The notes beneath the pieces were generated by a model. The model saw only the letters and a program-made list of their open reading frames with translations, was not told where the DNA came from and made no database searches. A DNA stretch of 64,000 bases from Pseudorhodobacter sp. E13 (GTDB lineage Bacteria > Pseudomonadota > Alphaproteobacteria > Rhodobacterales > Rhodobacteraceae), in assembly GCF_003991405.1 (NCBI RefSeq), contig NZ_RPEN01000158.1:248001-312000 (forward strand), in the 5' to 3' direction. This document shows positions 35,280 to 41,051 of this stretch, piece by piece; positions within the stretch are counted from its first letter, which is position 1; each line of letters begins with the position of its first letter. The position numbers and the translations under genes are program-made.

Positions 35280-37088
35280 TTAGGCTGCTTCTGCCTTGGG
35301 CGGTGACAGGGCCAACAAGCGCGCACCCGTGACTGGCACCTGTTTGCTATCCGCCCCGACAAAGCGCAGATCGCCATTCGCCGGAATCACACAGAGCAGG
35401 ATCGCATTGGGCCGATCCGCGCGCCATGCTTCAAAGCTGTATTCCTCGGTCAGCTTGGTGGTGCGCACCTCCCAGCCTTGGGTCAGCAGCGCCTCATAAT
35501 CTTCATAGGGCCGCCCGTCCCCGATCCGCCGCCCACCCAGCGTGACAGGCAAGTTGTGCCGCGCGCTTTCGCTTTTGGCGCGGGGCAGTTGCCAGACCTT
35601 GTCGCGGCCAAATTCCGGGGCAAGGTCAGTTGTGACCAAGGTGTTATAGGCATCATTGTCGGTTGCCGCGACGATGGTGGAAAAGCCGATGAATTCCACC
35701 TTGTTTTCCGCCGCCTCGGACAGGATGTCCCCGAAAAACACCTTCAGCCCCGCCGCGCGCGCATGGCGCAGATGGCCAAGGTTCACATCCGTCACCAGCA
35801 CCGGCACGTCGGCCTTGGCCAAAGCCCGCCCCAGCGAGGTGGTCAGCCGCGTGCCCCCCACCAGCAGCACGCCCGGCACCTCTGCGGCGCGTAGCCCCAG
35901 AAGGCTGGCCAGAGGCGTAAGGCCAAAGCCGTTGATCACCACGGTCGCGGCCACCAGAACAAAGGCCAGCGGCCCGATGGCCGCCCCATCCGGCACGCCA
36001 AGCGCCACCAGACGTTCGCCAAACAGGCCCGCAACCGCCATCAGCACCACACCGCGCGGCCCGGTCAGGGCAACCAAGACCCGCTCACGCATTGGCACCG
36101 AGGTTCCGATCAGCGAGGTCATCACCGTCAGGGGCCGCGCCACCAGCACCACCAGCGCCACAAACAGCACCGCCCGGATATCCAACCCCAGCAGGGCCGT
36201 CATATCCAGCCCCGCCGCCAGCAGAATGAACACCCCCGACACCAGCAGGATCGTGGCATGTTCCTTGAAGCGGCGCAGCTCCTCATAGCTGGGCAGTTCG
36301 GCATTGGCGATCACAAGGCCCATCACCGTCACCGCCAAAAGCCCGCTTTCATGCAGCACGCGGTCGGAAATGGTGAACACCGCCAGCAGCACCACAAACA
36401 GCACCGGCACTTTCATATATTCCGGCACCAGCGCCTTGCGAAAGGCCAGCGCAATGCCGCGCCCGGCCAGCCAACCGACCAGCGTGGCAAAGAAAATCCC
36501 GACAAAGAAATGCCCGGCAGCCGATCCGCCACCGCCATCGGCCTGCATCACCTGCACCACGCCAAAGGCCAGCACAGCGGCCAAAGCGCCCACCGGGTCA
36601 TTCACAATCGCTTCCCATTGCAGCAAGGCCGCAGGGCGGCGCGACAGGCGGGCCTGGCGCAGCAAGGGCGCGATCACCGTGGGGCCTGTCACGATCATGA
36701 TACCGCCAAACACCGCCGAGGCCGCCCAGCCCAGCCCCGCGCCGTAATGCACGGCAAGCGTCGATGTCAGCCACCCCAAGGGCGCGCCCACAATGACCAG
36801 CCGCCGCACACCTTTTGCGGCATCCTGCAAGGCGTGAAAGTTCAGCGTCAGCCCGCCTTCGAACAGGATCACCGCGACCGCGATGGAAATCATCGGCCCG
36901 ACCAGATCCCCGATATCACGCGAGGGAATGAAAATTCCCGTTGCAGGGCCAATAATCAGCCCCGCCACCAGCATCAGCACGATCGCAGGCATTTGCAGCC
37001 GCCATGCCAACCACTGCGCCCCCACACCGATCACACCCACAAGGGCAAAGGCCTCTACTGGCGAGAGGCCTGCGGATTCAACTGCCAT
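35280..37088 (-). CDS. CPA-type sodium/proton antiporter with cytoplasmic RCK-like domain
   Basis: 602 residues. About twelve membrane segments cover residues 10-405, with the antiporter motifs FEGGLTLN and the charged pair in WEAIVNDPVGA that lines the ion path. Residues ~415-600 form a cytoplasmic regulatory region: a Rossmann-like RCK/TrkA-N fold (VLLVGGTRLTTSLGRALAKA, VLVTDVNLGHLRHARAAG) and a further C-terminal domain. This is the NhaP-like group fused to a ligand-binding domain; whether it moves Na+ or K+ cannot be told. It starts 6 bp after the dgt stop and is probably in the same transcript. Confidence 0.88.
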   Translation of the reverse strand: MAVESAGLSPVEAFALVGVIGVGAQWLAWRLQMPAIVLMLVAGLIIGPATGIFIPSRDIGDLVGPMISIAVAVILFEGGLTLNFHALQDAAKGVRRLVIVGAPLGWLTSTLAVHYGAGLGWAASAVFGGIMIVTGPTVIAPLLRQARLSRRPAALLQWEAIVNDPVGALAAVLAFGVVQVMQADGGGGSAAGHFFVGIFFATLVGWLAGRGIALAFRKALVPEYMKVPVLFVVLLAVFTISDRVLHESGLLAVTVMGLVIANAELPSYEELRRFKEHATILLVSGVFILLAAGLDMTALLGLDIRAVLFVALVVLVARPLTVMTSLIGTSVPMRERVLVALTGPRGVVLMAVAGLFGERLVALGVPDGAAIGPLAFVLVAATVVINGFGLTPLASLLGLRAAEVPGVLLVGGTRLTTSLGRALAKADVPVLVTDVNLGHLRHARAAGLKVFFGDILSEAAENKVEFIGFSTIVAATDNDAYNTLVTTDLAPEFGRDKVWQLPRAKSESARHNLPVTLGGRRIGDGRPYEDYEALLTQGWEVRTTKLTEEYSFEAWRADRPNAILLCVIPANGDLRFVGADSKQVPVTGARLLALSPPKAEAA

Positions 37089-37094
37089 CGTTTC

Positions 37095-38267
37095 TTACTC
37101 CGTCTCTGGGGGCGCGGTTTTGAAAATCCGCGCATGTTCTTGAAGGGCAAAGCGGTCCGTCATTCCGGCCACATAATCGGCCACGATGCGCGCCAGCAAT
37201 TGCCGGGAATCCGCGCGGGCCACATCTTCGCGCCATTCGGCGGGCAACAGCGCGGGTTGATCCATGAACAGCGGGAACAGATCACGCACCACCGATGTAA
37301 CCCGCGCGCGTTCCTTCATCACCGATGGCGCGCGATACATGCGGGTGAACAGGAAAGACCGGATCGCCTTCAACTCCTGATACAGCGGCTTGGAAAAGCG
37401 GATCACGGTGCCATCCATCGCGCGGATATCGCTGACAGATTGCGGTTTCGCCGCCCCCAGACGGATATTGGCCACCGCGATCACATCTTCGACCATACGG
37501 CCAAAGACACGGCGCAGCGCCTCATGCCGGCGGCGCATCTTGTCCAGACCGGGGTGCAGCGCATCCACTTCGGCAAAGGCGGGGCCAGTGACGGGCAGTT
37601 CCATCAGATCCGCCTCGTCAAACAGGCCAGAACGCAACCCGTCATGCAGATCATGGTGGGAATAGGCAATATCATCGGCAATCGCGGCCACCTGCGCCTC
37701 GGCGCTGGCATAGCTGTGCAGTTCCAGATCCCATTCGGCATTGGCCTCGACCAGCGCATAGGGCAACACCTGCCCCGGTTCTGCGACCACGGGGCCGTTA
37801 TGCTTGGCAATGCCTTCCAGCGCCTCCCATGTCAGGTTCAACCCGTCGAAATCGGCGTAATGCCGTTCCAGCCGGGTGACGATGCGCAGGGCCTGGGCGT
37901 TATGGTCAAAACCGCCGTAAGGGGCCATGAGTTCGGCCAGTGCATCCTCTCCGGTATGGCCAAAGGGGGTGTGGCCCAGATCATGCGCCAGCGCGATCGC
38001 CTCGGCCAGATCGGTGTTCAGCCCCAAGACGCCGGAAATGGTGCGTGCCACCTGCGCCACCTCGATCGAATGGGTCAGCCGCGTGCGGTAATAATCGCCC
38101 TCATGTTCCACAAAGACCTGCGTCTTGTGTTTCAGCCGCCGGAAGGCCGAGGAATGGATGATCCGGTCGCGGTCGCGCTGAAACGGCGACCGGAACGACG
38201 ACATCCGCTCGGCGTGCAGACGCCCGCGAGAGCTTTCCGGGTGGCAGGCAAAGGGTGCAAGCATCAT
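37095..38267 (-). CDS. dgt: dGTPase-like deoxynucleotide triphosphohydrolase
   Basis: 390-residue HD-domain enzyme that cleaves dNTPs to deoxynucleoside and triphosphate. Metal-binding residues are seen in RLTHSIEVAQVAR (His), AHDLGHTPFGHTGEDAL (His-Asp pair) and DDIAYSHHDLHDGL (Asp). The opening FRSPFQRDRDRIIHSSAFRRL and KTQVFVEHEGDYYRTRL are strongly conserved in the family. A start at the second Met (residue 2) is equally possible. It is followed by the antiporter gene and is divergent from the ErpA-like gene. Confidence 0.92.
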   Translation of the reverse strand: MMLAPFACHPESSRGRLHAERMSSFRSPFQRDRDRIIHSSAFRRLKHKTQVFVEHEGDYYRTRLTHSIEVAQVARTISGVLGLNTDLAEAIALAHDLGHTPFGHTGEDALAELMAPYGGFDHNAQALRIVTRLERHYADFDGLNLTWEALEGIAKHNGPVVAEPGQVLPYALVEANAEWDLELHSYASAEAQVAAIADDIAYSHHDLHDGLRSGLFDEADLMELPVTGPAFAEVDALHPGLDKMRRRHEALRRVFGRMVEDVIAVANIRLGAAKPQSVSDIRAMDGTVIRFSKPLYQELKAIRSFLFTRMYRAPSVMKERARVTSVVRDLFPLFMDQPALLPAEWREDVARADSRQLLARIVADYVAGMTDRFALQEHARIFKTAPPETE

Positions 38268-38412
38268 TCCGACCTATAGCGCCGCACAGTCACGGCTATC
38301 GCTTTCGTCTATATGCGATTCTTTGGGGAATGGCACCCTTGCTGCCGCGCCTTGTCCTGCACCATCCCGCCCCCTATATTACAAATATAACAGCCGCAGA
38401 TAGGCCCATGCC

Positions 38413-38757: not shown

Positions 38758-39687
38758 TCAGGCCTGTGCCGTCTGCGCCCTGAGCGAAGGCAGCGCCCGG
38801 TCGACCCGCGCCTGACACAGCAGCGCCACCGCCCCGGCCAATCCCACCAATCCCGCACCGATCACCGTTTGCACGGTCGGCACCTCGCCAAAGTGGTGAT
38901 AGCCGATCATCGCCATCCAGACGAATTGAATATTGGCCAGCGGAAAGGCCACCGTGGGCCGCAGGTTGCGCATCGCGATCACAAGGCTCCACCGTCCCAA
39001 GAACATGCACAGGCCGAACAGCAGCCCGACCCAAAACTCGGTCAGGCCAATCGGGTGAATATCCCAGACCGCCCAGAGAGCCGCAACCAAGGCCACGCAA
39101 AGATTGGGGTAAAACACCTGCACCATCGCGTTCTTTTCAAACTGCGCCATCCGGCGCGACAGCATCAGGCTGATCGTGCCAGCAAAGGCTCCGGTAAAGC
39201 CTGCCCAATGGCCCAAGCCCGGCCAACTCAGATCCCCCAGAAACAGCACAGCAACGCCAAACGCGCCAAGGCACAGTCCCGCCCATTCCGCGCGCCCGAT
39301 GCCATCTTTCAGCACCAGTTTCGACAAGGCCGCTGCCATCACCGGGGTCAACCCGACGAACAAGAACACCTGTGTCAGCGGCAAGAGCTTTACCGCCAGA
39401 AAGAACGCAAAGGCCGAAACAACCGTTGTCAGACAGCGCAACATCAGCAGATCAGGGCGTTTGGTCGTCAGGCAATCGACCTTTTGGTGGGAAAACCGGG
39501 TCATGCCCTTGGCGACCCAAAAGGTGATCAGCGCGACGAAACCATTGGCCATCATCAAAACCTCGGCCACGGGCAGCCGCCCGGACAGGAATTTGGCCAA
39601 CCCATCCGTTGCAGCCCCCAGCACGGTGGCAAGCACCAGCATGGCGACCCCGGCCCAAAGCGTGTGACGCGCCATTTCACGGGTCAT
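38758..39687 (-). CDS. EamA-family (DMT) exporter coupled to the peptide locus
   Basis: 309 residues with ten hydrophobic segments in two repeated EamA halves (residues ~12-150 and ~160-300), the drug/metabolite transporter fold. The second half contains GRWSLVIAMRNLRPTVAFPL and ANIQFVWMAMIGYHHFGEVP. EamA proteins usually export small metabolites. The ATG at 39687 overlaps the stop of the 352-residue gene upstream by 4 bp, so the two are translated together. That coupling suggests it exports a product made by that gene or derived from the 62-residue peptide further upstream. A longer N-terminus from 39747 is unlikely. Confidence 0.85.
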   Translation of the reverse strand: MTREMARHTLWAGVAMLVLATVLGAATDGLAKFLSGRLPVAEVLMMANGFVALITFWVAKGMTRFSHQKVDCLTTKRPDLLMLRCLTTVVSAFAFFLAVKLLPLTQVFLFVGLTPVMAAALSKLVLKDGIGRAEWAGLCLGAFGVAVLFLGDLSWPGLGHWAGFTGAFAGTISLMLSRRMAQFEKNAMVQVFYPNLCVALVAALWAVWDIHPIGLTEFWVGLLFGLCMFLGRWSLVIAMRNLRPTVAFPLANIQFVWMAMIGYHHFGEVPTVQTVIGAGLVGLAGAVALLCQARVDRALPSLRAQTAQA

Positions 39688-40742
39688 GCCGCGACCCCCA
39701 GATCGGCGCGGGCAAAGCCTTGGAAAAAGGCGGTGAATTCTGGCCATGCCTCAACCTCGGCAAGGCGGGCTTGGGCGGGTTCTGACAGCGCGGGCCACAG
39801 CCGCCAGCGCATCACGCCCCAATCGCCGCGCCGCTGATCGCCCAAGGCAAAAAGCTGGGCCGACAGCTCTTGCAGGGCCGAAGGTCCACGCTCTGGCCGG
39901 TGGAAGGTTGTGGCATCGTGGGGCATGTCAAAGGCAAAGGCCCGACCGCCCAACTGCCCCGCGGCCCAGTTCAGCATCAGCATTTCGTGGAAATCATCAG
40001 CGCCCGCCGCCGCTTGGCTGCCACAAAACACGTCAGAGGCCGCCCGCAGGACTGCATTGGCCCACAGGTCTGGCACCGCAGCCTCGCTGAACCGCAGGGC
40101 CAGAACCACTTCTGCCAGAATATCCATATCCTGATCCAGCCAAGCGACCAGCCCCGCATGGATCAGACTGCGGCGGATATTTTCATTCTGCGCCATAGGC
40201 TTGCGCCCATAATCGGTGGCGTAGAAAACCATATGCGTCAGGCTGTAGGCCGCCGCGCGATCCGGCAGCCGGAAAGCATCACTGTTTTCGCAGAAGGCTT
40301 GCAGCCGCGTGGCATGGCCAGAGCCTGCTTGCGGGCGGTTCAGCGCGCGGTCGATCAGAAAATCCGCCTCTACCCGTGCAACATCCGACAATTCCTTGGC
40401 GGCCAAACCGGATTGCTCTGCCCAAGCCGCAACCGGCTGCGCCGCATGAGGCGTGCCGGATAACACGTTCAGATCATAAGAAAATCCAAGGATCAGGCGA
40501 TAATATTGCGGAAAGAACCGCAGCAGGGGCAGCAGCTTGGCGCCCGCATCGTCATAGGGGCGCAAATCAGCACCTTGCACTGGCCAATCCAGCGCGCGCA
40601 GCACTGACAGCAACTCTCCGTTTTCCTTATACCAAAAGGCATTGGTTTTGGCATGGCGACGCTCTGCCACCATTTCAATCACCAGCGCGACCGGATTGTC
40701 CGATGTTTTAACGCGCGGAAAGGTCAAAGAAATTACTGTCAT
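39684..40742 (-). CDS. Uncharacterised 352-residue protein of the peptide locus
   Basis: A mostly helical, soluble-looking protein starting MTVISLTFPRVKTSDNPVAL. Histidines and tryptophans are scattered without a motif I can assign. The C-terminal part has RRGDWGVMRWRLWPALSEPA. I do not recognise a characterised family; from memory it may correspond to a Rhodobacterales domain of unknown function (DUF6902), unverified. It lies between a repeat-containing 62-residue peptide, separated by a strong hairpin, and an EamA transporter it overlaps by 4 bp. By position it is the candidate processing, modifying or immunity protein for the peptide. Confidence 0.7.
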   Translation of the reverse strand: MTVISLTFPRVKTSDNPVALVIEMVAERRHAKTNAFWYKENGELLSVLRALDWPVQGADLRPYDDAGAKLLPLLRFFPQYYRLILGFSYDLNVLSGTPHAAQPVAAWAEQSGLAAKELSDVARVEADFLIDRALNRPQAGSGHATRLQAFCENSDAFRLPDRAAAYSLTHMVFYATDYGRKPMAQNENIRRSLIHAGLVAWLDQDMDILAEVVLALRFSEAAVPDLWANAVLRAASDVFCGSQAAAGADDFHEMLMLNWAAGQLGGRAFAFDMPHDATTFHRPERGPSALQELSAQLFALGDQRRGDWGVMRWRLWPALSEPAQARLAEVEAWPEFTAFFQGFARADLGVAA

Positions 40743-40782
40743 TTCAAACGTCCCTTAAAACGCAAAGGCGATACATAGGACC

Positions 40783-40825
40783 GCCCTTCTTAAAATCGCG
40801 GCTGAGGTGGGTCGACACCTCAGCC
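40783..40825 (-). terminator. Hairpin terminator or attenuator between peptide gene and downstream genes
   Basis: Arms GGCTGAGGTG (40800-40809) and CACCTCAGCC (40816-40825) form a perfect 10-bp stem with a six-base loop. On the minus strand a T-containing tract (GCGATTTTAAG) follows. Placed 37 bp after the peptide stop and about 60 bp before the next start, it should allow high peptide expression with lower read-through. Confidence 0.8.
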
Positions 40826-40862
40826 ACGGGGCCACCGTGCAACACAGCAACCCAGTCTCGGA

Positions 40863-41051
40863 TCAGGGAGCCGAGAAGCTTTGCGCCATCACTGTGGCCT
40901 GACCGCTGATCATATCAGCAGCGCCCAGCTTGATTTCCGGCGCTGAAAAGCTTTGTGCCATGGTGGTCATTTCACCGCTGAACATATCAGCAGAAACCTT
41001 TTCGACAATAGCAGTTTCAACGACGGTTTTTTTAACAGTGTTCATTTTCAT
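40863..41051 (-). CDS. 62-residue peptide with internal duplication, candidate precursor peptide
   Basis: AGGAG lies 7 bases before the ATG at 41051. Residues 1-20 (MKMNTVKKTVVETAIVEKVS) look like a charged leader. Residues 21-38 and 45-62 are near-copies: ADMFSGEMTTMAQSFSAP and ADMISGQATVMAQSFSAP, 14 of 18 identical, and the protein stops exactly at the end of the second copy. There are no cysteines; Ser, Thr and Met are abundant in the repeats. Such a leader plus repeated core is typical of ribosomally synthesised, post-translationally modified peptides, though a small repeat-bearing structural or regulatory protein is possible. A hairpin and two coupled genes follow on the same strand. Confidence 0.75.
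   Translation of the reverse strand: MKMNTVKKTVVETAIVEKVSADMFSGEMTTMAQSFSAPEIKLGAADMISGQATVMAQSFSAP

Follow-up and report, generated by a model that had tools for sequence, protein, structure and literature searches.

Fungal and yeast repeat precursors carry several near-identical cores and linkers in one polypeptide, and the fold of the peptide epimerase MslH is metallophosphatase-like. Multi-core microviridin precursors likewise contain several near-identical cores with linkers (PMC5934393). MslH, the epimerase of the lasso peptide MS-271, is metal-dependent (PMC10406935), and one DUF6895 protein is named as a lasso-peptide epimerase in the title of an article (ACS Catal. 2026, 16, 1757; reference in PMC13352647). 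The locus described here resembles each of these systems in part. Its precursor is laid out like those of the multi-core RiPPs, but the enzymes differ and the precursors have no sequence relation. The outcome that we propose, conversion of an L-residue to D in a ribosomal peptide by non-radical chemistry, is that of MslH, whereas the protein concerned, a member of Pfam family DUF6902, has an all-helical model, no related solved structure and no match to a Pfam family other than DUF6902 and DUF6895. Its family is homologous, above the Pfam cut-off, to that of the reported DUF6895 lasso-peptide epimerase. Our favoured reading, in which we place moderate confidence, is a RiPP system in which the DUF6902 protein would epimerise repeated cores and an EamA protein would export the product; it would appear to be a new multi-core RiPP family, widespread and with a maturase that resembles an epimerase.

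The window, that is, the whole stretch of DNA that was analysed, comprises 64,000 nt of Pseudorhodobacter sp. E13 (NZ_RPEN01000158.1, positions 248,001 to 312,000), and coordinates are given as window positions. Its features are as follows.

40863..41051, minus strand: precursor peptide gene, 62 residues (MKMNTVKKTVVETAIVEKVSADMFSGEMTTMAQSFSAPEIKLGAADMISGQATVMAQSFSAP); open reading frame preceded by AAGGAG, 7 nt from the ATG
40938..40961, minus strand: core copy 1, MAQSFSAP; synonymous differences from copy 2 at 5 of 8 codons
40866..40889, minus strand: core copy 2, MAQSFSAP; C-terminus of the precursor, exact repeat of copy 1
40797..40828, minus strand: strong hairpin with a 13-bp stem in the gap between the precursor and DUF6902 genes; only TTTT a few bases past the stem
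39684..40742, minus strand: DUF6902 protein, 352 residues, proposed peptide epimerase (Pfam, profile-profile match, helical model, H170/H252/D207/E211)
38758..39687, minus strand: EamA-family transporter, 309 residues, proposed exporter (Pfam EamA, 1.2e-16; adjacency in relatives)

The coordinates confirm what the initial annotation had described, namely a 62-residue peptide gene with a good ribosome binding site, three genes on one strand and coupling of the EamA gene by an ATGA overlap between its start codon and the DUF6902 stop. Elsewhere in the window, a 673-residue open frame on the plus strand (36258-38279) runs antisense to the genes for the Na+/H+ exchanger and the dGTPase-like protein; it probably reflects G+C-rich codon use rather than a gene.

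The 352-residue protein had been described as belonging to no recognised family. It matches Pfam DUF6902 with 289 bits (4.5e-86; cut-off 27) and scores above the DUF6895 cut-off as well (54.7 bits, 1.4e-14; cut-off 23.8). DUF6895 was matched by 61 of 62 DUF6902 proteins (E <= 0.01), and no further Pfam family by any of the 62. A profile-profile comparison of DUF6902 with three DUF6895 proteins using hhalign gave a probability of 95%, an E value of 3.7e-8 and 14% identity. H170 and H252 (all residue numbers are those of the window protein) align with conserved DUF6895 histidines, and D207, E211 and the next motif residues are common to both families, which share Y..[ST]H..F...[DE][FY]G, DxD..xE-type and YH..LV motifs. 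The four residues were present together in 61 of 62 DUF6902 rows, the window's included. An AlphaFold model of the protein (pLDDT 92) is almost wholly helical. No solved structure was significantly related to it by sequence or fold, its resemblance to helical repeat proteins, TPR-like ones among them, was insignificant, no viral fold matched the model, and no solved structure was related to DUF6895 by sequence.

Because a peptide epimerase has been reported in the sister family DUF6895, epimerisation is the first hypothesis for DUF6902, and new chemistry, which the initial annotation had anticipated if the system was real, becomes the less likely reading. The two families are nevertheless separate in Pfam, and their distance (14% identity) means that the reaction may have changed. 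The RiPP system might thus rely on a different DUF6902 reaction, such as precursor cleavage, dehydration or cyclisation of Ser/Thr/Cys or another backbone change. That distance leaves room for it, as does a predicted fold unlike any solved one, but none of the 62 members matched a known cyclase, dehydratase, radical-SAM or protease family, and we consider a non-epimerase reaction unlikely.

DUF6902 also departs from the DUF6895 lasso epimerase in its distribution, being confined to Rhodobacteraceae in the samples searched, and in its partner, a multi-core precursor with tetrapeptide cores. In three loci from other Proteobacteria, a small peptide is encoded directly upstream of the DUF6895 gene (L114:5197-6888, L115:5422-7338 and L116:5494-7188). 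These peptides contain two internal repeats or two tandem copies and aromatic core-like ends (GPWFVL, GPWYIY and GDWTFIS). They differ from the DUF6902 precursors by a longer leader-like part and by their aromatic cores, and no EamA gene was recognised beside the three DUF6895 genes. The enzyme superfamily thus seems to include a second peptide system distinct from the first. Since these three DUF6895 loci have upstream peptides of their own, members of the superfamily may generally have a peptide partner. In the families to which G592 and G429 belong, DUF6895 occurred too seldom for the peptide comparison to be widened.

The initial annotation had proposed co-occurrence of peptide and protein across genomes as its test. 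We sampled 249 genomes of the window's family, 70 with DUF6902 and 179 without, and sought upstream peptides in the 69 DUF6902 loci that could be fetched; a second set comprised 80 named GTDB loci, partly from the same organisms. A precursor lay directly upstream of DUF6902 in 68/69 loci of the first set and 80/80 of the second, i.e., 148 of 149. In the first set, a repeat model directly found a repeat-bearing precursor at 67 of 69 loci, in a few cases with a low score; the window precursor scored 52 bits, the window repeats being among the model's seeds. The model had no other match in six frames within 5 kb on either side of the 69 loci. One more precursor, that of locus L059, is interrupted by an assembly gap and brings the count to 68.

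In the reverse direction, a profile built from the repeat alone, with the window sequence left out, was run on the same 249 genomes. It detected 65 of the 70 DUF6902-positive genomes and none of the 179 DUF6902-negative ones (Fisher P about 2e-54, a guide only because the genomes share ancestry). The positives that it missed were the window, G041 and G100, whose precursors are short or diverged, as well as G140, in which the gene is cut by a contig end, and G039, the genome of locus L100. L100 is the only one of the 149 loci in which the precursor is absent. It is also the sole DUF6902 row without H170, H252, D207 and E211, and it has no EamA gene. This is a single natural co-loss of residues and peptide, suggestive rather than conclusive. 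The L100 gene (L100:4000-5999) is a diverged DUF6902 copy that retains none of the residues common to the two families, and it is possibly decaying or repurposed. Taken at the level of sequence, the link between precursor and DUF6902 is strongly supported.

The EamA gene was next to DUF6902 in 52 of 69 loci of the first set, with a start-stop overlap in 50, and not beside it in the other 17; among the named loci with full flanks, the two genes were neighbours in 58 of 66. The site of the cassette is largely fixed: an exodeoxyribonuclease III-like gene borders it at one end, and genes for an Fe-S protein and a dGTPase-like HD protein border it at the other. All conserved neighbours are housekeeping genes. 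The conserved block contains no protease gene, and unlike at lasso peptide loci, no lasso leader protease (B) or cyclase (C) gene was found by Pfam among the conserved neighbours or those in the window.

In the window's genus, DUF6902 was present in one of nine genomes, that of the window. The flanking genes were present and the cassette absent in the other eight, and the flanks were directly adjacent in seven of them. An unrelated gene occupies the site in the genus mate L133 and some further relatives, and the genes found between the flanks in some DUF6902-negative genomes are unrelated to the cassette. Relatives without the system lack all three cassette genes. As the flanks are kept while all three genes are missing, the cassette appears to have been gained or lost together. 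A scan of GTDB species genomes yielded at least 365 relatives, and the cassette occurs in several hundred species of Rhodobacteraceae. DUF6902 was not found above the cut-off outside this family in a class-wide sample, nor in PLSDB plasmids.

At the N-terminus of the precursors lies a short leader, typically M[STN]A[LQ]xK (70/80 loci), and behind it there are usually 2 to 20 tandem units, each 20 to 21 residues long and of the form G-[DE]-xxx-[ML]-F-core4-x-P. In most relatives, the C-terminal end of the precursor lies at or near a core. The window pair of precursor and DUF6902 is a diverged outlier with two repeats only, exact copies of MAQSFSAP spaced by 24 residues. No Pfam or NCBIfam model matched the precursors, including those of known RiPP precursor families. 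The four core residues are the same in almost all repeats of one precursor and vary between species (e.g., SSGS, TSGS, TSGL, TSWS, TTSC, TNWC and CSAS). Their richness in Ser and Thr, often with Cys, speaks for a DUF6902 reaction other than epimerisation, but the content of these residues varies widely, and cores such as MCCS and IAGL exist.

In 54 precursors, core residues differed in 2.5-2.8% of repeat pairs, whereas core codons showed synonymous-only differences in 40-49% and upstream linker residues differed in 59-70%; the search pattern itself set position 0 (Gly) and, in part, positions 5-6, which are therefore no result, and a mild bias comes from the requirement that one core occur three or more times. 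Similarly, the 5 of 8 codons that differ between the MAQSFSAP copies of the window all do so synonymously (simulated P about 1.4e-4). Core residues are thus held while their codons drift synonymously, which indicates selection on the core peptide; by these sequence comparisons, this selection is purifying and concentrated on the core and a few adjacent positions. The repeat protein might instead be structural or of low complexity, with neighbours that are merely co-inherited and no peptide product, as low-complexity proteins commonly contain Ser/Gly/Ala-rich tandem repeats in variable numbers. We regard this as highly improbable given the near-perfect co-occurrence, the joint presence or absence at one site and the focus of selection on the core and its few adjacent positions.

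On the DUF6902 tree (67 labelled loci; many branches poorly supported), the core changes at least 44 times, and so the family tolerates many cores. From one genome to a related one, the cores are exchanged as a block, which a recognition code would lead one to expect. This behaviour would suit a DUF6902 protein that is no enzyme but a helical peptide-binding protein acting as chaperone, immunity protein or receptor, the unmodified repeat peptide being cut and exported, perhaps as a signal. The all-helical model is compatible with such a role, albeit with insignificant similarity to TPR-like and helical repeat proteins, and there is no linked dedicated protease or second enzyme. Against it stands homology to a family with an epimerase reported in an article title, together with His, Asp and Glu residues conserved in both families and lost with the peptide in L100, which fit catalysis, although binding could account for them too. 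We find a binding protein without catalytic function clearly improbable.

For the favoured epimerase system, we envisage the following steps. The upstream gene would yield a precursor composed of a short N-terminal leader and several short cores, two in the window and up to 20 in relatives. Guided by the leader, the DUF6902 protein would bind this precursor and, by acid/base chemistry that needs no cofactor, epimerise one or more residues of each core from L to D; the conserved His170 and His252, together with Asp207 and Glu211, would probably serve in this reaction. The repeats would then be cut apart by a protease encoded elsewhere, and the EamA protein would export the very short peptides that result. 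Members of the EamA family generally carry small metabolites, a role that would fit a product of few residues. More tentatively, we propose that the cassette could define a RiPP class that is undescribed and widespread in Rhodobacteraceae. Its single helical DUF6902 enzyme would put the same D-residue or another modification into as many as about 20 identical cores of four to six residues, and the exported products would be very short peptides with sequences that switch in blocks from species to related species, as in a pheromone-type code.

The initial annotation had also placed a hairpin with a T-tract between the precursor and maturation genes. The hairpin is strong (13 bp; z about -4.9 for the 120-nt gap of the window in a rough dinucleotide shuffle), but the T-tract amounts to TTTT only, and a consensus scan found no terminator there. 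A conserved attenuator was rejected, as the mean z of the relatives is about -1 over 67 loci. Of the RiPP-like layout proposed at first, the core idea of a precursor with a maturation protein and an exporter is supported in outline, whereas the conserved attenuator and the protein without family had to be abandoned.

Our literature search, outside which most subscription journals lay, found no work on DUF6902 or on the repeat strings, and none of relevance on RiPPs in roseobacters. The cassette would represent a putative single-enzyme peptide modification system at a largely fixed chromosomal site in several hundred species, apparently unnamed and unstudied in the literature searched. More than 30 natural cores belong to one enzyme family and give a direct view of its substrate tolerance, and one co-expression experiment makes a DUF of unassigned role testable. 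Should the product prove to be an exported peptide specific to each species, roseobacters would have in it a candidate for a peptide signal or a competition factor.

Some loci show variant precursors. In L096 (L096:4249-4885), there are apparently two different tandem precursors, one with FTSGS-type cores and the other with two LFGSSC cores. The precursors of L044, L058 and L038 contain extra 8-residue mini-repeats, e.g., VQMFTSGL right after EMFTSGL, and the smallest unit may therefore be about 8 residues.
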